From Straminergon stramineum (taxonomy: Eukaryota > Streptophyta > Bryopsida > Hypnales > Calliergonaceae), in contig OY987268.1 in the NCBI GenBank assembly GCA_963920665.1, positions 16,866,501 through 16,930,500 on the forward strand: DNA of 64,000 nucleotides. Reading direction: 5' to 3'. The notes beneath the pieces were generated by a model. It ran no database searches, was not told the origin of the DNA, and worked only from the letters and a program-made list of their open reading frames with translations. Made by a program: the position numbers and the translations under genes. Below are positions 3,504 to 58,071 of the stretch, piece by piece (the stretch's first letter is position 1; the number at the start of each line of letters is the position of its first letter).

Positions 3504-3960
3504 CTTGAAGGCCGCACTCAAGCTCAGCAAAAATATTGCGTCGTCACCGTAGTGCTGGTCGAAAAGGGTCTACGATGAGGACCACGCCGCTCTAAGAACC
3601 ACGGGGTTGTCCACGAATTAGGTCAACGATTATCATCCATATCCAAAAAAATTAGACGAATACTGTAAGCGAAATATCGTCCAACTTCGTCAAAGACCGT
3701 CACGGTTTCACAGGGTCCGCGCTCAGCCCTAAATCCTTGAGTCGAAAGAGTTAAGCTCACTTCACTTCTTCTATTGAAGAATTGAGCGCAATTAGTGTTC
3801 GCTAGAGATTTGTTGCAGCTGAGGTTGAAACAGATCGATTTTTTTCATTAACGATTGTCGAGTTTTCTTAACGCTCGATTTGGACTTCTGAATCTCCAAG
3901 TGGGTTATGGATTCAATCCTCTCTCTTTATAAGAATAGATTGCTTCAGGGAGTAGCAGCA

Positions 3961-4060
3961 GAAAGATCTGGTAGTTTGCAGAAGGATCTGGCAGTTTGCA
4001 GAAGGATCTGGCAGTTTGCAGAAGAATCTGGTAGCTTGCAGAAGAATCTGGTAGTTTTCG
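3961..4060. repeat. Five-unit 20-bp tandem repeat upstream of HSP20 copy 1
   Basis: Five 20-bp units lie in exact register at 3961, 3981, 4001, 4021 and 4041. Each follows the pattern GAAnnATCTGGnAGnTTGCA. A 20-bp period is close to two helical turns, so any factor binding a unit would sit on one DNA face. The array lies between the divergent ubiquitin-eS31 and HSP20 genes, about 300 bp upstream of the HSP20 TATA box. Each unit holds a GAA triplet, but none is a full heat-shock element. Short frames across it are by-products of the repeat. Confidence 0.7.
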
Positions 4061-4300
4061 GAGGGATCTTGAAGCCTTGCTCCTCACTCCACCTCCTCAT
4101 TCACTGGTCGGTGTCCGAAATGGAGGTGCGGAACAGGGATTTGCCAGATACGCTCCTACCATCGGCTTTTCCTTCGAAAACCATCCTTCACTCAACAAAA
4201 ACGAGCATAAGAGAATAGACAGGAGCATTGTCTTTGGAAATTTCTCAGGAAGTTCAATTGGACAAGAACCATCTGAAGGAATCCAGACTCTTCCAGATCG

Positions 4301-44382: not shown

Positions 44383-44392
44383 GCTTGATTTT
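44383..44392. repeat. Left target-site duplication of the large MULE
   Basis: GCTTGATTTT occurs immediately outside the left terminus and again, without mismatch, immediately outside the right terminus (58062-58071). A 10-bp duplication is within the 8-11 bp range usual for Mutator-like elements. Confidence 0.85.
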
Positions 44393-44702
44393 GGACGTTG
44401 CTAGTATGTGAGCGGGGAGTAGGGAGCGACGAGCGGGGAGCATGGAATGGGGAGCGGTGAGTGTAGATCTTGGACAAAAAAGGAAAGAAAGCGAAGGATG
44501 TGAATTTTTTTTTGGATGAAAGTCAATGAAAATTTAATGAAAGTGAAGGAATTTTTAGTAGTCAACAAAGTATTGGATGAAAGTTAAAAAAATTTGGGTG
44601 GAAGAAAATGGATGAAAGTAGATGAAAAAGTGGATGACAGTAGATGAAACAGTAGAAGGAAATAGATGGAAATAGTGGATGAAAAGTAGGTGAACTAAGA
44701 AA
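44393..44702 (+). repeat. Left terminal inverted region of the MULE
   Basis: Opens GGACGTTGCTAGTATGTGAGC, then a cluster of GAGCGG/GCGGGGAG motifs (44410-44465), then many degenerate GGATGAAAGTRGATGAAA units up to about 44700. The right end has the same three-part order in inverse orientation. The subterminal clusters are candidate transposase-binding sites. The inner limit is approximate. Confidence 0.7.
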
Positions 44703-45215
44703 ATCAAAAGGAAGAAAATGTGAAACCCAGTATAAAATTCTGTTGTGCATAAACTAAAACTTCTTCGGTGCTTGACCTATGACCACGGAAGTAGGGTGAC
44801 CTAAGACCGTGGAATATGAAAGTGTGGGATTCAACAACCATAATACAGTAGAATGCAATTAAACCTGTTATGTATATATTTTAAGGGTTTCAAGGACATT
44901 GGGACAAGGCCATTTTGCTTGTATAAGGAATTTAAGAACCCCAATTCATGACCAATATATTATGATTTTACATGTAGGTCACATGCTAGGAATCGGTGGA
45001 GACACAATAGTAAGGAACATAAGGTACATTAAGCTGATGTGAGAGGCAAAATACAGTGAAACATAATGTGAAGTACTAGTAGACTGGAGATTGGTTTAGG
45101 GTGCAAATTCACATGTATAATTGAAGCGCATGTAGTGGCCCTTGTAGTCTCACTACATCTTCAATGATGAGTACAATAAACACACACAGTGTTCATTCTT
45201 CGTAGAAATATAATC

Positions 45216-48200
45216 CTAATTTGATCCCAAATGATTTAGTATCCCACTGAGAAGGACTTCCTTGACTTCCTTGAAACTGAAACTCGCGGCATGAATGAAG
45301 CCATCTGATGTAGATTGGAGGTTGCAAATGACAGTGAAGACAAAGTAAAGATGCTTACAATTTGCCCAGGTTCCACACTTTCCAAGGCACTTCAGCTTCA
45401 TCTCCTTGAAATATGGGCAGGTACAATCTGGGAATGATGAGATTGTAAGCATATACTTTTCAGTTCGAGGCTCTACACCAGAAATGAGGGAGACTATGCA
45501 ACCAAATCCAGGATGAGGAACCATGGTTACCCTTTGAATGTGTGCAATAAGAGTCAAGGCCGAAGCACAATTGTTCTGGTGCTTAGTTGTTGGGGCCTTC
45601 GGGTTGCGACGAATGACTTTGCCCGCTCGAATGTTGGGATGCTCATCAGGTAGAGATGGAACAGGGTAGCCACGCACCAAATCGATGCCTGCTTCTCCAC
45701 CAAACAGTCTTCGGGGTGAAATGAGTTGACGCTGCGGAAGTTGGAAACCGGCTACTTCGAAGGCTAGAATCTTGGCCTTCGAGAGTTTGGTGCCCATTTG
45801 AACTAGCCATATGATTGGAATAGGGGGTCTTGATACCACCCATTTTCTACGTGTTCCCTTGACACAGCGTTCAATGTCGTCGTTGCAGAAGAAAAATTGC
45901 ATACGTTCATTACAATTCTTTCTATAATTCACCATCATACCTGTGTAAGTGGGCGCTGTTGTTGCCATGTTGTTGTGGACTATTTTGGCTATACAATTCT
46001 TTCTAGTAATTGCTTGAAGTGCGAAGTACGCCTTTGCTGATGTCTTGGGTAATCGAGCAATGTGCCATTGCATCTCATCACAGACACTCTCTTGAATTGC
46101 TGACACATGAGTTGAGGTCTGAGCAATATTCTGGCCTAAGTTTTCCTCATCCAACATCACGTCACTAGTGTGCACATCTATCATTGGAGCAACGTCTTCA
46201 AGAATTGGATTCAAATCTTCTGCACTTCGTGTGCCTCTCCATGATCTTGTCTGAATGCGAGGATGAGAGAAATTTACCTTGTCTGGTCTGTGAGAATCGT
46301 ATTCGCAACCAAGTGGCATGTCTGCCTTTCTTTTCTGTGACCCAAAAACTTCTTCACCTTCTAAATGGATCTCTCTATTCAGAAATTCTGCCACTTCAGA
46401 GATGTTTGAAATAGCATCCGTTAGAGCCTTGGGATTTCCAGTCCGCTCAGCCGATTGCTGGGCAACACGTAATAGTAATTCTTCCTTCCCTGGTCCTGTC
46501 TCGGCTTGATTCCCCTTGAGGTACTGATAATATCGGACCATTTGCATGAAAGCTCTAACAAAATCGTCCACCGTGGCAATGTATAAATCATTTCCACGAT
46601 TTCCAGATTGCTGTAGCCACTTGTTGTGGACAGTCTCAACTAAGTTGCAGGATAGCATTTGTGCAAGCTCCAATTCTGTAAGATTCTAGAAAATGCAGAA
46701 TTGAAATACCATAATTAGATCTTTGTACACTTCAATGCAATCAATATTCGGGACAGAAGAAAGTAGGCTACCAATAGAGCTCATCGACAGTCCAACCGCC
46801 CTGCAATGCTTTCTTAAAACTTCTCCATTGAAGCACATTGTCTAATCAGAAGAGCTTGTACAGTTTGCGTGAGGGTACCCTATGAATGGCCCCTCTCAGC
46901 ACCGAAACGGCCCCGAGGGGTAGTCGAGCCATGCACCACTTATCCAGCAGTGGTTCAAGGAATTCAATAGCCAATCTATAAACGAATGATAAATCCATGA
47001 TCCTAGGTATTTAGGTAACCCCACTTGGCCCCGACAGACTCTTCAGGATATAGTTCTCATGCATGATTGACTTCAACAATGACGACATCTTATGAATGGT
47101 GTACAACCTAGGGTAAAGCCATTCCCCAATTTCAAGAGACAAAACAATGGCGGGGCCTATAAGAAGACCTGAAGAACTCAAGATAGATATAACAATATCA
47201 AAATGATTAGGAAGTGAAAGTCATGTAGTTCAAAGACTTACTAGTTGCATGAAACCACCCCATTGGCGATAACGGAAATGCCAAAATGAAAGCCATAGCT
47301 CCAATCGATGGAGTCCTTCTTCGGTAGTAGCTCCTGATGACAACCACCATGCCTTAATAGCAAGGTAATGCATTTCGGACTCTTCAGGAGACGTAGCATT
47401 CTTGTACTGTTTGCATAGCATACGATGTTGATCCTACATGTCCCCACGAATTTCAGCCTTTGTATGCTTTTCCATAGACTGAGACCAATAGAAGAGGCAT
47501 GTTCTTTCTCGATTTTCCATTGGCTCGGCAATGTCACCAGAACCATAGACCATCCTTAAAGCATTCCAATTCGCTTGAGCACTGTCAGCCATGAATCCTT
47601 TGAACTGAGTCATTGGTACATCATTTCTTTCAAGTACAGAATTCAAATTCTTCCAGAACAAAATTTGTGCTACGCAATCTTCAGATTGCATGTCGCAACA
47701 TGCAATGGTCATCACACGACAATACGAAGAGTCATAAACATGACATGCCATAGTTGTCCACCCTCTAACACGCTTGACGTGATCAAACATGATCCAAGAA
47801 TCTTGAAGGTCCCCTCTAGTTTGCATGCGCTTCACCAAGTCGACTCCGCTACCTGGCCCCACTTTAGACATTTTGAAGACGAATACTTTATCAACATCTG
47901 TCCCCTGACCTAGAAATTTACTTTCTTGAACGAAGGCCCAGGCACTCGATCCCCTCAACTTCGTAATGCTATCTATCACTCCAAATCTCCTCAAATATTT
48001 AAAGGAAGTCACCTCGTTCCGTATACTTGGAGAGCTGAAATATTTGCATTTGTCCAATACAGGAACTAGGGCAGCAAAGTCCAAGGTCTGCGGCAGGTCC
48101 CCATCCGGACGTAAAAGTAGTTCACCAAATAGTTCCTTAGTAGCCTCCATCACAATAGAAGAATTGGTCGCTGACGATGTTTTCTCCAACTACTCACCAA

Positions 48201-49335
48201 TGAGAGTTCGCGTTTTCTCCTGCATGTCTCTAAGTTCACCATCTTTAACCGGATGTTCATGAATTCCAAGATGAACAAACGCCCTAGTGAATTTCGGGTT
48301 TCCACCAACATAATAAACCCGCGCATTACACCGCGCAATACACGATGGTGCCTCTTTGCAGATTTTACATACAAGTGTGGAATCTACGGGATGCGTACAT
48401 CCAACCTCAAGTGGAGTGGGTGCTAGACCTTCCCATTCCAATTCATTGACCTCCTTCACTCGGTGAGCGCGACTAAGGAACGCACACTCAGTGTTCATAC
48501 ACTTAAGATGGCCTAAGCAAACTGACGTGCGGAACGATAAGCCTTGACGGTTGATTATGTTTGTTGTGACAGTCTTGGACCAAACATGTCCATCGTATCG
48601 CTTATCCATTCCAACCATTTGCTTGGCTTGAGATGGAGCCCCAAGATTGTCTAATGCTGGCAACTCAAAAACTACATCGCCATTAAAAGTTGGTGGCAAC
48701 ACCGTCACTCTATGAATGTCAATAGTGTCGTAATCAATTTTGGACAAAGCATTCCTGCAACCTTTTAAGTTACGGAGACCTCTCAAACAGTCAAGGACAG
48801 ATGCTGCAGATATATTCTGGACATCTAGGTCTTCGGTCGCATTCTCTTTTGACGCACCTAAGTTTTGCGAAGTCAGCACCGCAAGAAGAGTCTCAGAGTT
48901 AGAAGGTGGTTCAGGGGAATTGACATCTGAATCAGAACTCAAGTAGGTGACTTTCTCAGAATGACCTTCAACCTTAACATGAATTAAGGGAGGAGTTTTA
49001 TAAGACAAAGTAGAGGACCGGTTGAATGTCACTCCGTCATTGGAATTTGAACCATGAAAAATACGGATGCCGTAGGCCCTATACTTTCCGGATTTTAATT
49101 TCCAGAAAGTGTTCTCCCCACTAGATGCCGGTAATTGTCCGACAGTGTGAGTAAGAACACTTGACTCACTTTCATAAATTTCCTCATCGACATGGATCAA
49201 ATCCAATCTCAATTGGAACCTAAGACTTAATCTAACCGCCGACACTTCGGCATGTCCGCCTTGTTCCACCAGGAAAACGATAGGTACCCCTTCACCATTT
49301 GCAGTGATAACAACCATATCAATGAAGTCCGCCAT
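45216..49335 (-). CDS. MULE-type transposase, interrupted by in-frame TAG codons
   Basis: This should cut and paste the surrounding element. It starts at ATG 49335 (TCGATGGCGGAC). Residues about 255-375 form a Cys/His-rich DNA-binding region ending HLGIHEHPV, like WRKY-GCM1/FLYWCH-type fingers of MULEs. After an in-frame TAG (48190-48192) the frame continues through SWIMFDHVKRV, a WKNLNSVL helix and FKGFMADSAQANWNAL, which holds the likely second catalytic Asp, then RERTCLFYW. A second in-frame TAG (47434-47436) precedes the helical stretch AIKAWWLSSGATTEEGLHRL. The exon ends at a GTAAGT donor near 47243. A further exon of uncertain limits lies near 46970-46860. The last exon (about 46680-45216) ends in a SWIM finger (CTCPYF...CKHLYFVF). 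Both stops fit former Gln codons. The family call is strong. Confidence 0.8.
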
Positions 49336-51021
49336 CGAACTCAAGTCCGATCTCCCAGCACTCCTTTCTAACCCAATACAATGTAACTTGTACTACAAAT
49401 GACTCTCTACATCAACTTCAGAACATGACATACTAAGTATAAGTAATGGAACATGAAGGAACAACACAAAGGCCATAAGTGAGCACATCTGTAAAGCACT
49501 TCTTCGGAAATCATTCAGAATGGTTACCGCTACAATCTCCTGAAACGAAAGGGAAGTGTGACATCTTCTAGAATGAGCAAAGAAGATGGTAAGACACCTC
49601 AGAAAACATTGAAATAGAAAGTGCAGATAAAAGCATGGGTCATCTTGAACCATTTACGAATTAATGCATGCACTCACTGAACCTAGGAACACGCTGACGG
49701 CTTCATATTTAAGGGAAGGTGACGGTTCATTGATTGCATGTGACTACGAATATACTAGATGCCTGATTATTAGTAGACGTCAAAAAGAACATCCACTAAA
49801 AATATATAGTAGTACTCATCAAATATGGAATCATGTATATAACAATATATTAGTTGCGTCATTTAGATGAAAATGACTAATTTTATTCCATGCATCCAGT
49901 ATGTCAAAAATTCCTCACTAGAATAATATTCTGAAGAGCCACCATGCGTCATCCTAAATAAGGATGATTTCCCTACAAAGTAACTATGATCAGAAGCCAC
50001 GAATCAACAGCACAAGGCTATAAACGAAATTATCACTTTCATAAAATATTTAAATAAATATATGCCTCCAAAAGTTTATTATAAGAAGCCTGGAATAATC
50101 ATTTTGGATAAAAGTCTCATTTATAGTAAACCCATCATAAAAATTTAGATAGAATATAAAGTGGACACAAGTATTGGAAATGAACAATACAAAATTGCAG
50201 AGGGTTTAAGGGATAGACCCTTTCGATATTGTAGCTACATCTACGAAAATATAATAACTCACATCATTAGTAGTCAAAGGAAAAGAATGGATGGATTTTT
50301 ATAATTCTGGAAGAAAGAAAATATAAAATCACATTAGAATTATTACTTGTCAGAAGTAGTCCAATTCAAATAATCCCCATGATAGTTTCCCCGTGTATCC
50401 CTTTGTAATCCTTACACAGTTTAAGTTGGATCTAGGTAGTAATGGAAATGAAATTCGCGACTCATAGAATCATGAACTAGAGAAAGATAGCTGAGTTGAA
50501 TGAAAATGACATAAATCTAAAAAGAAAGTTCTTCTGTGACCCCAAAAATAAACTGTCAAGTACTAAAAGTACTTTTTTGGAACGATCACAGATAAGTCAG
50601 TTTGCGAGACAGGCCAGATATAGTGGGTATCCCATACATATCTCATTACATGCAATTTTCATTCAAAAAATTAACCACAAACATCCACTACACGAGATCA
50701 TGGAGCCAATGGACCTTCAGTCAAATCTTCAAGTGAAGCTCCATTGACAAACAATCCTAAATTGATAACCCAAGCAAGCGATTCCTGTGGGTCTACCAAA
50801 CCTAAAGCCCCGTAGGTTTGGCCGCGATTCCCTCCACGAAGACGCCAACGCCGACGCCGAAGGAAGTACACCCACCGAGGGACTCCTGTCATCAGAGGGA
50901 AGACGGCGCTGACATAGTCTCCTGCTCTTCATTTGCTACACACCAGTTTGGAAGAGCGCGTTGTATGTTCGACTCTTGGTATCGGAAGATTATCCCTTGC
51001 AATTTCTTCATTACAGCAACC
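49336..51021. promoter_or_regulatory. Divergent spacer between the two MULE genes
   Basis: About 1.7 kb separates the two divergent start codons. It is AT-rich up to about 50690 and then more GC-rich. It has no recognised coding sequence and must contain the promoters of both genes. I cannot pick out a convincing TATA box for either. Confidence 0.45.
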
Positions 51022-54000
51022 ATGGTGATGGAACGTAATCTGAGATCACGAAGGAACCACGCTGGAGAAGTCCCTGTCGCAATAGCGGCACTACCGACAT
51101 CAAGCTCGGGAGTAAGTCCTACAACCCAATAATCAAGACATTTCAAAAATCATCACTCTGGTCGTAATGCGCGTAACCCCCATTTCTCTTCAGTAAAACA
51201 GGATCCAATCGGAACAGAGAGGTTTCCCGCAGATGCGCCATAGTGCCACCATTCTCTTTTTTCATGCGAGTATTCTCCTTTCTTACGATTTCAGTTTTTG
51301 CATGAGAGGTCCCTGTGCGGGTATCTGTGCATAGCGTGGGCGACCCCAGGTCCCATCTCGGGACCGAGAGGTCCCAAACAGTGAGAGACCCCATGCATAC
51401 GGCGCCCAGGGGAGGAGCCCGCGGCCCTTTTGATTCCAGTCCCTCACTGTTTGTGGGATTTTTGGTTTCATCTTTTGATTAGTGAAAGCCGACACTATGA
51501 GGCCTGTCGGTCTTCTCCAGGTATTCTCAGTGCCACCCTTTTTTATTTTGATGAGAGTATTTTACTTTCTTGCGATTTCAGTTTTTGCGTGAGAGGTCCC
51601 TGTGCAGGTATTTGTGCATAGCGTGGGTGACCCTGGGTCCCCTCTTGGGCCCGAGAGGTCCCACACAGTGAGAGACCCCTTGCATACCGAGCGCAGGGGA
51701 GGAGCCCGCGGCCCCTTTGATTCCAGTCCCTCACTGTCTATGGGATTTTTGGTTTCATCTTTTGTTTCGCGAATGCTCATGCTTTCAGGCCTGTCGGGTT
51801 TCTCCAGGTATTCTCACTGCCACCCTTTTTTATTTCGATGAGAGTATTTTACTTTCTTGCGATTTCAGTTTTTGCGTGAGAGGTCCCTGTGCGGGTATCT
51901 GTGCATAGCGTGGGTGACCCCGGGTCCCCTCTCGGGCCCGAGAGGGAATCCAGCCTTGGTCCCTATATGCGTATTACCGTATTCTATATGATGTGCATGC
52001 ATTCCAAATTTGAATTTGCGCTTGGTGGGCTTCCATAATCCTGAGATATTCTTCATCAAGGGGGATTCTACGTAAGAGTTCTGGACATCGAGGGATCACA
52101 TGATTGGGCTTCACGTTTTATTCCGTGTTTCTCCTCATGATTTTGTCATAACTGGAGTTGGTTTGATTCAGGACATTCCGGCTACCCTAGACAATGTTGT
52201 CATTGATGGGATTGAAGGATGCGGGGACATAGCAACAGTTGCAGAAGTGCCTCTTGAGGTTTTCGTGGAGATGGAAACGATTGAGTTACCACCTCCTGAT
52301 ATTCTGGAAAATCCATTACCGAGACCGAGGGTAAGCTTGGACGCGTTAATACGGGACTTAGACACAGACAATGAGGACATGTCCAGTCAAGGAGAGTCAT
52401 CACCTCCTCATTCCTCTTGCACCAACGTAGGAGATGACCAGGATCTGGAGGTCGATTACGTCACTGAGGAGATGACAGAGTATTGCACATGCAACCATGT
52501 GGATGTAGAGGTCACATCCGGCGTAGTGTCTAATGCTGATATTCTTATATTTTGTTGTGGATAGTACAGGTCTCTTACTGAGGCTTGTGTTTGTGCTGTT
52601 TGATGCGGATTGAGTACTTTCATAGCGCTTACTTTGAGATAACACGAATGAGTACTTGAACAATTGTTTCTTTTATTATTATTATGAGACTCCCATTTTC
52701 GTCTTCTGATTTCATTTTCTTGTGACCAAATGAAGCTGATTTGTCATTTGAATTATGATTTAATTATACTTCTCTGCTCAATACAGAACATTACTTCATC
52801 AGGACCTCTTCACTCTCGGACGAGGTCCAGTGGGTCAACGATGGTGGATGTGGGTTCACAACCAGGCATTGGCTCGGACGTGGAAATGGATGACGGTGTG
52901 GAGGACCACCTTCTTGGAGGTCAGCATCACTACATGGAGGATGACATCAAGAAGTCCCAAACAATGGACACAGTGTCTATCATTTTGAGTTTGCGGTTGA
53001 CCACCTCTGATCTCTCCCGCATGCGGATTCCCCTTTGCCGACTAGTGCCTATGCCTATGGTCCGACCAACACTCTCTTGCGATCTTACATTGCTTGAGAA
53101 TCAGTTTAGCCATGGATATGAAGAAGGCGCGAGGGTTTTTTATGTCTCCATTTCGGATGAAGATGGTCAGACAGCAGTTTTCTCCGATAGAGAGAAAGAT
53201 GAGTGGGGGCCCATATGGAATTCGGTGAATGATCAGTTCAATCTTTCTTTGAAGTCCAAGGTTGCTCTAAAGCACTTAGTGGACTACAAGTTCTTCGTCT
53301 GTGATGGGAATCACAGACGTATAGCTTGGATGAACCATATTAGCCGACTTCATCGAATAAAGAGGGATTGGCATATTTCAATGGACTCCATTGTACTTGA
53401 TACACGGAATCGTATCGGGGTGGCAATGCAGGCAATGCATGACATCAACAAGTACGCCTTACCTACTTGGATTAAACCAACTGAACTTATTACACATCTT
53501 CATTTTCATTTGAATTCTTGGTTTTATTTTTTTCATTGGCACCTCATATGCTGGAGTGGTATGGTATGACAGGCATACTGAAAACTCTCATGTCAAGACA
53601 AACCTCGTACACACATTGTATCGAGTGCAAAAATACGGAGTCATGGATCTCAAGAAGTTCAACGAGCTTCTCAGTCAAGATGACATTAAAACCTGCCAGC
53701 AGAATACACGGAGGACATGGTATTCTATGCCCCTAGAAGTCTTCACTTCCTTCATCTTCAAGGTAAAATATGATTCCTTTACTAGTTGGTTATCATTTCA
53801 ATGCAAATTAATATCTCATTGTTCTTTCCTTCACTTTTCTGTCCGAGCACACCTTGTTCTTATGTGCTACGCTTGCTATTTCAGCAAGAAATCGCAGCAG
53901 CTGCTGATGCTGTCGTTCGAAAATACAACGAGGAGACTGCGGACGATGAGATGTCCAAAGAGGGAGTTGCAACAGCAATGCGGTGTTCAATTAAGGAAAC

Positions 54001-57000
54001 CACGGAGAAGCTGTACAAGAAGTTATCAAAGATTGTAGCGGTGGCCAACCTTGCACTTGGAAGAGATTAGTTGGAAGAGGTACAGTCCACTCATAGTTGA
54101 ATTCAGAGGATTGAAACTCTACTCTTGTCTTCTGTTTCTAAACAAGTGTTCTTTGCTTGGACACAGATTGAACGGCACTGGAGCCTATACTCCAGCCCCG
54201 AGTTGACCTTAGAAAAGTTGCAAATGATTGCGACAGCCAACGTCAATGTGATGTTCAAGATTAAGTGGTTGAAATGGATCAATGCCTCAGCTCCTACTCG
54301 AGAGACATGCCGCTTCCCACCGCATCCTGTGAATGAGGAAAAATTACAGGTTTTCCTTAGTAAGGCATGTTGGTATGCAGGGGTAATATTTTTTTCTATG
54401 AATTCCTACCCCTCGTCAGAGTACCATAAATAATTCCAGTTGCTATCTTCACATTCCTTTAATCTAGTATACAAAAAAATCTACTGTTCTTACTCACTTT
54501 ACAATGGATGGTGATCCCCATGTACAAGCAGATTGAGGAGACAGCTACTGAGATGTTCGACTCCATAATCCAGGCAGATAATATAACCGTGGACTTCTCT
54601 ATTGCTACTGAGCCGCAAACACTCTCCAAGTATTTGGAGGGGTGGAGAATGAAGCTTTGGGATCATGCTTATACGGGTACGTTCAAGGGTGCCGACGCCT
54701 TCAAAAAGTCAGACTCCTTCAAGGACTTCAGGGGATCCGTATTGGCAGTTAAACACGTGATATACAGGTACATGTCTCTCTGATTAACCATTCCTTTCTC
54801 TTCCTCTAATTTTGAATGTGCCTTCACAGTCGACGAAGAACTACCAATGTAGATGTGTCCAGTCTAATTGAGTGGTCTAGGATCTTTTCTAATGGAGCTG
54901 GTTCTATTTCTCTTAAATTTTTTTGTGATGTACACTGAGACATGCGGTCGCTTCCATATATTCTAAACTTCTATTGCAATTTGGTCTTACACACACCAAA
55001 CTACTCTTCCATGAAGTGAGATAGACTAACATGAAAAATTCATTTGTAGGTACTTCAAGTTCGAGTTATATGGCAAGAAAGCCCTTGCAAAGGCTGATTT
55101 GCCCCCATTTCTCACCACGTGGCTGGATCGATCCTCCGCAGACTATATGTTTTCGCCCACACAGTTGAAGAACTGGACGAGCTCTCATTTGCAGGCTTGC
55201 CCTTGGTACCTGGAGTGCAACTTCGGGATCACGCCACCGGAAGAGGAGATTCTTTTTCAGAGGCTCAAGGATACCGCCATTGTTGAGTCAGAGTTCGATG
55301 AATTCGCCAGATTAGACCCGGAGGCACGAGATAGGGCCATCAAGAGGTGTGAAGCGTCTAACAAGAGGAAATTGGAGAAATTGGAGGATGCCAAGAAGAA
55401 GACCGAGGAAAACAAGAGGAAGAGACTTGCTGCCCAAGCTGAGAAGGATCAAGAGAAGGCTAAGAAGAAGGGCACGAAGAGGAAGGCTGAGACACCATTG
55501 CAGGAACCGGCTACTAGTGCAGTTGATATGAAAGAAGGGTCGTCCGGTTTTTCCCTAACTCAAGAGCGTTTGGTGCATGGATTGACACCAACAACTCATA
55601 ATCTAGACCCTATTCCGGATATTGATGAGTGCATCTTGAACTTGGCCCTGGGTAATCTTCAAGGCACGAAAAAGGCCTATGACGACGTCCTATCCTTCTT
55701 GGCCATGGTAAGCCCTTCATCTCTTCCTGTGTCCACCGTGCCTCTATCATTTTCAAAAACCTAAACCACCATTACATCACACATCTCTTCTTTTGTTGGC
55801 TCTAAACCGCGGCTTTGTTTACTATAGTGACGTTTGTATTTCAATATACATTTTTTAATATCATATCCTCCTTCGTTTTTTGTCACTAACACTTTTCCGT
55901 GCAGCATTCCAGTGACAAAGATCGCTACTTCAACGGGGTCCTCGATTCCCAATCAGATGTGGACTTGATCATCGTGGATGTTCCCGAAGGTCTCCATGTG
56001 CCTACCATATCAGTTCCACCTGGCCCCATTCCTAAGTAGAACAAGTTCACATCTCAATGGTTAGTTCCAGTTTTTGACTTCGCTCAAGAGTTTTTGCACA
56101 ACAGCGGTGGTATGTTGGTGATGTATCCAGCCCCCTGTGTTCCCCACAGAAGCCACATACTCGGATGTTGCAAAGAGTATAACTTCAGAATACTCATCAC
56201 TTGGTTTGGCATGAATCATCTTCACTTAACCTCACCTGCTGATCCCACTAAGACGATAAGAGACCTTTTAGACTCCTAAATACTTCTCATGCATTTTCTC
56301 ATCAACTGTACCGGATTTCTTACTTCTTCTGCCTACAGACAATGAGGTTTGCCATCTCCCTAGTGGTCAAGGAATGTGGACCAAAGACACAGGAGGAATT
56401 TCCTTTCCAGTTCGTCCCATCCCACGATGTAGTGGGTGTTAATGTGGGACGGGACGACATCCTCCAGAATTTTTGTAACAAGGAGGACGTCACCATGAAT
56501 GGCAACAAACCGTAGCGGGGTCCTCGGGAAAAGGCTCGGCAGTTCATGCAAATGCTTATAGAAGCATGCTCTGAACCTGGGGACGTCGTCGTCGACTGCA
56601 CTGCATCTACAGGTACTTGTTGTTTTCTTTGTTCAACTAATTTATGTCAAATTATTGGATAATATAGCTATTTCGATGTCTTGGACTTTAACTTCTCTTG
56701 GATGCTAGTAGGGGCCAGCATTCAAGCTTGTCGTGCCACACGTCGACACATTCTAGCATTTGAGGAGGACAAGGCTATCTTTGATGCCCTCATTGCTCCA
56801 GTCATGCGCACGGTTCCAAAACCGCCATCGCCACACCCTCCTACAGCCGCTCTAGATCTTGACGACTTGGATGTACCGGTCCAAGCTATTGTCAAGACAT
56901 CACGATTCAGTAAGTAAGTTTTCCTCTGAGTTCTATGGTTTAAATTTACTATTTTCTTCATGGGTTCATTTGATCTAATACTTTGTTCACTTGTTTTGAT

Positions 57001-57264
57001 AGGCAAGACCCGACAGTGAAGAACTCTAAGAAGGTTCCATTTTTTTCCAACCCTCGATTTTTCCCAAGTACCCCTAAGCCATTTCAACTGCCCGTGTATG
57101 CTAAGGCGGTTTCCAAGAATTTCATTGCCCTAAATCCGAGGCCAACTTCTAGGGCCCATTTGGTAGATTCTCGTGTACTGGAGTTCGTAGATGATTGTGC
57201 TGCAGAATTAGATTCACAAACATCAGATAGTGAGGGTAGTTCGACCTCAGCCCACTTCGGCTGA
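51022..57264 (+). CDS. ParB/sulfiredoxin-like plus DNA methyltransferase-like fusion carried by the MULE
   Basis: This multi-exon gene is probably a transposon-encoded DNA-modifying protein. Exon 1 (51022-51111, context AACCATGG) ends at GTAAGT. Exon 2 starts at 52172 in phase. Exon 3 (from 52787) holds FFVCDGNHRRIAW (about 53293-53331), the GxHRxxA signature of the ParB/sulfiredoxin fold, followed in later exons by helical segments. An exon near 55050-55707 ends in a Lys/Glu coiled coil with nuclear-signal-like clusters. Then come DLIIVDVPEG at 55962-55991 (motif IV position, normally DPPY/W), then NFRILITWFGMNHLHLTSP, and finally GDVVVDCTASTG (56579-56612) spliced to 56712 (ASIQACRATRRHILAFEED), a good motif I for binding S-adenosylmethionine. 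IV before I is the permuted beta-class order. In-frame TAGs occur at 54068, 56037 and 56513. Frame in the 56338-56612 exon is partly ambiguous. Activity is unproven. Confidence 0.7.
51241..51960. repeat. 287-bp tandem direct repeat in intron 1 of the methyltransferase-like gene
   Basis: Landmark TCAGTTTTTG recurs at 51291, 51578 and 51865, exactly 287 bp apart each time. The units (about 2.5 copies) are GC-richer than their surroundings and include gagaggtccctgtgcgggta, agcgtgggtgacccc and gaggagcccgcggccc. Each unit also carries a GTATTCTCA / CCACC block. They lie wholly within the first intron, just downstream of the start codon. Open frames across them are repeats of one another and not genes. 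Confidence 0.85.
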
Positions 57265-57609
57265 AATATTGTTGTACACCACTATGGTATTTTCAGTGCA
57301 TGTTGGTGATTGACTATTTCTAAATTTCTCCTTTCTTTCCTATTTGAAGTCTACTTATATCATTTGAATGTTCGTGGCTCTAAATTAGATGATGTTATTC
57401 ATAGTGATTTGAGGTTGCACTACCAAAATTGATTTAAAATCCTAAAACCCTAAACCTCTCACGTGACCTAAACCCACGGTTGTAGGTAGACTACACCTGC
57501 ACGATTATAGGACAATTGTTTCTACAGAAAATGGGACCCTAAATCCTAACCACTTTTCAATTAAATGGAGCCCTAAAACGTAATCTTAGCCTTTTTCCGA
57601 TGTCTTTCC

Positions 57610-58061
57610 CAACATGGCATCTATTCATAGGAAGTTCTCACCCATTTTCTCACCCATTTTCATCTTGTTTTGTCATCTACTTTCATCTATTTCTTGACAC
57701 ACTTTCATCCAAACCCTAAAATTCATTCATCCATTTTTCCAATGAAATTCATCAATTATCCTAAACCACTTTCATCCCTTTCATCCAACTGCTTTCATTG
57801 ACTTTTTACAACCACTTTCATCCATTTCATCCATTTCATCCAACTGCTTTCATCAACTTTTTACAACCACTTTCATCCATTTTCCATCGACATTCATCAA
57901 CTTCTTCTTCAACTTCAATCCAATTTCCCAAATAATTCTAGCAAAATTTTAATCCATTTTTTCTTATAAATATTTTTAAACCAATAACCCTAAACCCCGC
58001 TCACCAATCCCCGCTTCTTGCTCACCGCTCACCGCTCCATGCTCACATACCAGCATTCCCC
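57610..58061 (-). repeat. Right terminal inverted region of the MULE
   Basis: Read inward from 58061 it starts GGGGAATGCTGGTATGTGAGC, then GAGCGGTGAGCGGTGAGC-type motifs, then a long series of GGATGAAAGT units, including a partly duplicated stretch at about 57765-57880. Its layout mirrors the left end. Confidence 0.7.
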
Positions 58062-58071
58062 GCTTGATTTT
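58062..58071. repeat. Right target-site duplication of the large MULE
   Basis: GCTTGATTTT, identical to 44383-44392. Confidence 0.85.

Follow-up and report, generated by a model that had tools for sequence, protein, structure and literature searches.

When a plant transposon carries a gene resembling bacterial DNA methyltransferases, does the element mark its own DNA with the product, or does the gene serve it in another way? This question is raised by a 64-kb stretch of the Straminergon stramineum genome (contig OY987268.1, positions 16,866,501 to 16,930,500), referred to here as the window, in which a transposon resembling Mutator-like elements (MULEs) occupies positions 44393-58061 (13,669 bp). 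Between its ends stand, as the original prediction held, two divergent genes, one on the minus strand for a transposase and one on the plus strand for an accessory protein with ParB-like and methyltransferase-like parts. We regard the element as a dead copy of a MULE-like family whose accessory protein, a predicted ParB domain joined to a pseudo-methyltransferase, may act at palindromes of its own element, and we hold this reading to be about evenly balanced between right and wrong.

The sequence GCTTGATTTT flanks the element identically at 44383-44392 and 58062-58071, exactly the perfect 10-bp target-site duplication that had been claimed, and the length falls within the 8-11 bp given for MULEs in the accessible part of one study (PMC6446971). 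Terminal inverted repeats, which are absent in some MULEs, are present here: the left (44393-44690) and right (57765-58061) terminal regions, both recorded on the plus strand and delimited by end-to-end alignment and genomic matches, are inverted relative to each other with 63% identity over 293 bp, near-identical tips (TGCTAGTATGTGAGC and TGCTGGTATGTGAGC) and a 24-nt stretch that is 88% complementary, in agreement with the predicted colinear inverted ends. Because short GGATGAAAGT-like repeats, abundant at 44500-44700 and 57640-57910, fill both ends, the terminal alignments are partly repeat-driven; the inverted ends are nevertheless not due to chance, because each end recurs at no fewer than 40 genomic places. 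Scans of the window against Rfam (gathering threshold) and for tRNAs gave no match.

We searched the host genome (326 Mb, 59 contigs) with DNA of four parts of the element, scoring the best 40 candidates of 53 for the left end, 52 for the right end, 352 for the transposase and 150 for the ParB exon. The left end (44393-44600) was found at at least 40 places with 89-100% identity, plus one 25-base piece, and the right end (57842-58061) at at least 40 with 91-100% identity, plus one short piece; transposase DNA (42 matches, two places being split) and ParB-exon DNA were likewise each found at at least 40 places, and at least 40 relatives of the element are dispersed through the genome. Ten left-end places (c01-c10) were sampled with 16 kb each. 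Six of them (c03, c04, c05, c06, c07 and c09) are further full-length copies with both genes; c01 contains both genes and extends beyond the sampled 16 kb, and c02, c08 and c10 match only partially within the sampled stretch. Perfect 10-bp duplications, each differing from that of the window, flank c03, c05 and c09, while that of c06 agrees at 9/10 positions, that of c07, read from its flanks, at 8/10, and c04 has none.

The pairing of the two genes was examined in these matches and at the protein level. Joining the four match tables at gaps of up to 26 kb gave 47 clusters, of which, among the matches listed, 28 hold all four parts in order, from the left end through transposase and ParB exon to the right end, one is a left end alone and one a right end alone; unpaired clusters may be due to limited match lists or truncated copies. 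A transposase lies in the cluster of 35 of the 40 listed ParB-exon places, and a ParB exon in that of 35 of the 40 listed transposase places. Protein searches were made with the methyltransferase exon (best 150 of 648 candidates scored, all matched, 39-100% identity) and with the DDE part of the transposase (best 150 of 842 candidates scored), and pairs were counted when they had the geometry of the window, namely a transposase upstream, on the opposite strand and within 30 kb. Such a transposase accompanies 94 of the 150 listed methyltransferase-exon places, against a mean of 0.98 and a maximum of 5 in random shifts, and other geometries were seen five times among the matches listed. By identity of the methyltransferase exon, 42/48 places are paired at 78% or more, 45/60 at 54-77% and 7/42 below 54%; conversely, the transposase rows have a listed methyltransferase exon in 92 cases among the first 105 and in 3 among the last 45. 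A search of an outside database gave 352 matches for the ParB exon at E<=10 and 126 for the transposase exon at E<=1 (120 listed each), and comparison of the two lists by eye suggests at least four contigs carrying both genes. It is thus supported that many copies, from more than one family, keep transposase and plus gene as a linked pair. The host genome also holds about 45 transposase copies at 52-57% identity, mostly stop-free and with frames of up to 782 amino acids, which may represent a younger related family.

The plus gene comprises 10 exons (about 1,080 codons), set from reading frames and splice sites and checked across seven copies. The first large exon (52787-53451), supported by homologues and a predicted fold, encodes the ParB/Srx-fold domain with a DGNHRR motif, and the similarity of its homologues stops at the first donor (DINK). 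It is followed by exons at 53573-53762, 53885-54079, 54167-54382, 54529-54767, 55050-55707 (lysine-rich), 55905-56255 (exon 7, with DVPE as the equivalent of motif IV), 56339-56612 (with methyltransferase motif I, DCTASTG), 56712-56913 (end of the methyltransferase-like domain) and 57003-57264 (final exon, containing the stop codon), exons 4 and 9 being delimited so that the frame is kept. The end of exon 7 at 56255 has a GT donor in 5/7 copies, lost in the window copy and c06, and in 5/6 relatives, relative L038 being without GT. Upstream of the ParB exon, an open frame at 52076-52564 on the plus strand is for the most part intact in c03, c04 and c05, apart from one stop in c05, but c06, c07 and c09 have it shifted or interrupted; it may contain a 5' exon of this gene. 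The whole protein found no match in the database search, probably because the entries there are frames the size of exons; the ParB exon alone had the matches given above. The viral contigs scanned contained no relatives.

The window copy has, besides the lost donor, three in-frame stops in the plus gene (near 54068, 56037 and 56513) and two in transposase exon 1, and because of the stops in both genes it is dead; the description of the transposon as complete therefore applies to its structure and not to its coding capacity. Each of the seven copies has 3-8 stops in the plus gene, and at 29/30 stop positions a C>T or G>A change in the codon of the other copies could produce the stop. We divided the seven copies into two subfamilies of four and three and contrasted the fixed differences between them with private substitutions: the plus gene has 6 nonsynonymous and 28 synonymous fixed changes against 240 and 122 private ones (p 4e-8), and by part the fixed nonsynonymous/synonymous counts are 0/5 for ParB, 3/14 for the middle and 2/9 for the methyltransferase region, exons 3, 9 and 10 having no fixed difference and hence being uninformative on selection. 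These substitution patterns show that the plus gene was formerly under purifying selection, and it was therefore probably needed while the family spread. Capture of host sequence is frequent in MULEs according to the accessible part of PMC13317346, and a passenger gene of the Pack-MULE type might be supposed here too; we set this explanation aside as highly improbable, because the same pair recurs with the same geometry in families whose methyltransferase exons differ by 30-40% and because selection acted between subfamilies, and the 352 database proteins resembling the ParB exon speak against it as well.

As for the product of this gene, the first large exon encodes, by prediction, a ParB fold: the predicted model has the ParB/Srx fold with a DGxHR motif, although the exon had no match in Pfam and reached a ParB family in PHROG only at E 0.039. 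The C-terminal part resembles beta-class adenine methyltransferases (DpnA, CcrM and phage enzymes), with the motif order IV then I/X and a motif I of the type that binds S-adenosylmethionine (SAM). Active beta-class N6/N4 DNA methyltransferases have a catalytic (D/N/S)PP(Y/F/W), and a phage relative of the domain keeps DPPY. At this position all seven copies have DVPE/K and all six chosen relatives, at 40-72% identity, have D-[VMC]-P-E, while motif I reads DCTAxTG-like in place of DPFxGSG. Because the altered motif IV is conserved in 7/7 copies and 6/6 relatives, DNA methylation by the accessory protein is doubtful, and the conserved change argues for another role or chemistry. The original prediction of a ParB-methyltransferase-like gene stands in that both domains lie between the ends, and fails in that motif IV is not canonical; its picture of a self-contained DNA-modification gene as a working enzyme is not supported. 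An N6-adenine or N4-cytosine DNA methyltransferase marking the transposon's own DNA is accordingly set back by the replaced DPPY and the altered motif I, and we think it unlikely in spite of the homology to DpnA, CcrM and phage adenine methyltransferases that runs across motifs IV to I/X.

Between the two genes lies a feature absent from the original prediction, a tandem array (51242-51945, 287-bp unit, 2.5 copies by tandem-repeat call) that contains the palindrome CTCTCGGGCCCGAGAG at 51355-51370 with two mismatches, at 51642-51657 with one and at 51929-51944 exactly, and none of the three is expected by shuffling. Tandem Repeats Finder (TRF), run on the window copy, c01, c03-c07 and c09, called arrays of 2.4-7.5 units in c01 and c03-c07 and none in c09; the array of c02 is inferred from a 288-bp spacing. 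The core CTCGG-NN-CCGAG is kept where the repeat units differ. We compared the majority units of subfamily A (25 sites; window copy, c01, c03, c04 and c05), c06 (4 sites) and c07 (7 sites), retaining 4/25 and 2/7 sites that have four mismatches and lie outside arrays and leaving unused the aligned units of c02, c09 and c10. Between these majority units the palindrome keeps 15, 16 and 15 of its 16 positions, the rest of the unit 153/268, 133/262 and 124/260; TGTGCATA and CCCATGCATAC, which flank the palindrome, are also kept between subfamilies, TGTGCATA being changed at its end. Exact CTCTCGGGCCCGAGAG occurs at 166 sites genome-wide, against 0 for the reversed pattern, and the 50 exact sites listed all fall within three element clusters. 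All occurrences of CTCGGNNCCGAG among the ten copies lie within arrays, except one in c07 about 220 bp beyond the TRF end; c08, c09 and c10 are without it. In one relative (G000:C1:15327753-15349781) the array has grown and contains at least 38 exact palindromes, spaced by 289 bp in most cases.

Two relatives, L042 and L043, with methyltransferase exons 70% and 65% identical, have in the same interval a 118-bp array of about 12 and about 19 units, that of L042 containing eight CTCGG-CA-CCGAG and two CTCGG-GG-CCGAG; these arrays align with the window unit only over short stretches, at E-values no better than 0.03, and several of these stretches coincide with the motif. Variation of the arrays in unit (118, 287 and 354 bp) and copy number, together with the lack of the motif in some copies, would suit functionless satellite-like repeats expanded by chance. 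We consider this improbable because the motif is kept where the remainder of the unit has diverged, because in the ten copies it occurs only in or beside arrays, and because shuffled intervals of the relatives give <=0.01. A third, distant relative, L044, has CCCTCGGCCCCGAGGG between the genes in a 354-bp repeat (2.1 copies, about 3552-4278 when the locus is read in reversed orientation), and this repeat could be an inserted satellite. Another 354-bp tandem array (4.0 copies, 97% matches) begins at the outer right edge of the element in the right flank of c03 (L016); identity of the two was rejected, there being no match between them.

The decay of the copies carries information on their silencing. 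Private C>T rates in seven copies are 0.32 at CG, 0.33 at CHG and 0.08 at CHH sites, with 0.027 for AT>GC. A CHG hotspot is a mark of plant-type methylation, and the decay at CG and CHG indicates, as a substitution record, such methylation of the copies; because C>T is concentrated at these sites, the sampled copies are taken to be methylated and decaying. The host genome also has MIR166-like loci that score just below the 60-bit cut-off (best E 2e-11, 59.2 bits) and for which 0/14 control genomes gave a match; together with the CHG decay they point to a land plant. No local protection was seen around the array, CG plus CHG decay being 0.13-0.36 per 500-bp bin and 0.16-0.25 in the array.

On the minus strand, transposase exon 1 (47242-49335, 698 codons, with two in-frame stops) encodes a DDE domain and a GCM-like N-terminal part, supported by homologues and a fold match. 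The interval 46686-47241 has partly open frames and provisional boundaries, since stops common to the copies compared tell that the exon boundaries there are not yet right, and the open frame at 45216-46685 is the probable last exon, with a SWIM-like CxC..CxH stretch that scores below the Pfam cut-off (SWIM, E 0.8). MULE transposases have zinc-finger parts, GCM/FLYWCH-like at the N-terminus and SWIM at the C-terminus. The model matches the fold of the ISCth4 transposase, which we take to be of the IS256 family, moderately (root-mean-square deviation 9.7 over 219 residues; Foldseek E never <=0.001), and the window transposase differs from it in being eukaryotic, with introns and the extra GCM-like part. 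Nonsynonymous/synonymous counts are 9/12 fixed and 146/75 private in exon 1 (p 0.05, two subfamilies), and 0/2 and 94/40 in the last frame (p 0.09).

How could such an accessory protein serve the element? In the mechanism that we propose, the product of the plus gene (ParB/Srx domain, long middle region, and beta-class methyltransferase fold with D-x-P-E), encoded divergently from the DDE transposase, would load, probably as a dimer, on the palindromes between the two promoters, by analogy with ParB at parS and with VANC at its repeats. It would thereby keep or make the element active, countering silencing or controlling transcription or transposition, by acting in cis where the two genes share a promoter region. 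The methyltransferase-fold part would either use SAM or serve for binding alone, instead of working as a standard adenine methylase. The two-gene layout with palindromes is suggestive of a helper system directed at the element itself or of one against silencing, and that the accessory gene counteracts host silencing is a reasonable inference by analogy. More tentatively, and with clearly less than even confidence, we suggest an undescribed class of plant transposons in which a ParB/pseudo-methyltransferase on parS-like palindromes of the promoter array blocks silencing, either by spreading in cis or by bringing in SAM or chromatin factors, with protein and palindrome center (GC, CA, GG) co-evolving between families.

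Several observations weigh against this interpretation. Copies of the ends without the plus gene, which had been named as refuting evidence, are mostly not seen, although among the matches listed 5/40 transposase places have no ParB exon, and no transposase is listed for 15/60 and 35/42 of the methyltransferase-exon places at 54-77% and below 54% identity. The transposase has no match to the Pfam MULE family, and its selection signal is weaker than that of the plus gene. Foldseek E-values of the ParB model never reach 0.001, and no helix-turn-helix domain was identified in the accessory protein; a classical ParB reads its site through such a separate domain. The palindrome is degenerate in c09 (two mismatches) and missing from the sampled stretches of c08 and c10, where c10 has one chance site with four mismatches. 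L043 has exact CTCGG-GG-CCGAG in only 3 of about 19 units, about ten sites being changed at one or more positions, its array is related to that of L042 (68%), so that they are not two independent cases, and the TGTGCATA box is absent from both. Because all seven copies have stops and roughly even CG/CHG decay, the accessory protein does not protect present copies. Alternatively, it may be the transposase or a host factor that uses the palindromes. The accessory protein could also be a cofactor of transposition or transcription, comparable to mudrB as a second MULE gene, with the palindromes as promoter or transposase-binding sites and silencing uninvolved. The placing of the arrays between divergent genes would suit this reading, and selection and pairing fit any function needed for spread. 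It leaves the fusion of ParB and methyltransferase folds unexplained, and we rate it as possible, at well under even probability.

That MULEs normally carry only the transposase or host exons, a premise of the original prediction, is too narrow judging from the accessible parts of several papers. VANDAL MULEs encode VANC anti-silencing proteins, which bind motifs within quickly evolving non-coding tandem repeats and remove methylation (PMC5735166, PMC10398659), some MULEs carry Ulp1 genes (PMC13317346), and Phytophthora MuDR families carry a SET histone methyltransferase (PMC12730594). By analogy, the VANDAL/VANC elements would be the closest functional parallel, sharing, in what these sources state, a second, non-transposase gene in a MULE-type element (PMC5735166, PMC10398659) and rapidly turning-over short-motif tandem repeats outside coding sequence, some of them lying upstream of the transposase gene; the family of the window element has such repeats in its non-coding region. 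VANDAL terminal inverted repeats are degenerate, whereas the inverted ends of the window element are clear, and the accessory protein here, likened to VANC by layout and not by sequence comparison, is of ParB plus methyltransferase-like type. Bacterial fusions such as Bce_0392 likewise join a ParB/Srx domain to an adenine-methylase-type domain, as the accessible text reports (PMC5512222), whereas ours is a plant transposon gene with introns, a long middle region and a D-x-P-E motif IV. Phytophthora MuDR/Harbinger elements with SET and fungal transposons with TET/JBP are also DNA transposons carrying an epigenetic-type enzyme (PMC12730594, as far as accessible), theirs being a histone methyltransferase or an oxygenase in mostly other transposon lineages, and ours a ParB/DNA-methyltransferase fold. 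The word methyltransferase does not occur in PMC6446971, and no plant Mutator-like transposon with ParB plus methyltransferase was found in the literature searched (titles and abstract openings, with subscription papers and preprints mostly outside). Accessory genes in MULEs are thus already known, and that literature yielded no ParB/pseudo-methyltransferase accessory gene combined with a palindromic array.

If the anti-silencing role is true, this family would provide a second, independent solution, after VANC, by which plant transposons defeat methylation, with an anti-silencing factor built from bacterial-type ParB and methylase parts and a eukaryotic use of ParB-parS-like logic. The numerous copies, the conserved palindrome and the relatives with open frames make this idea directly testable.

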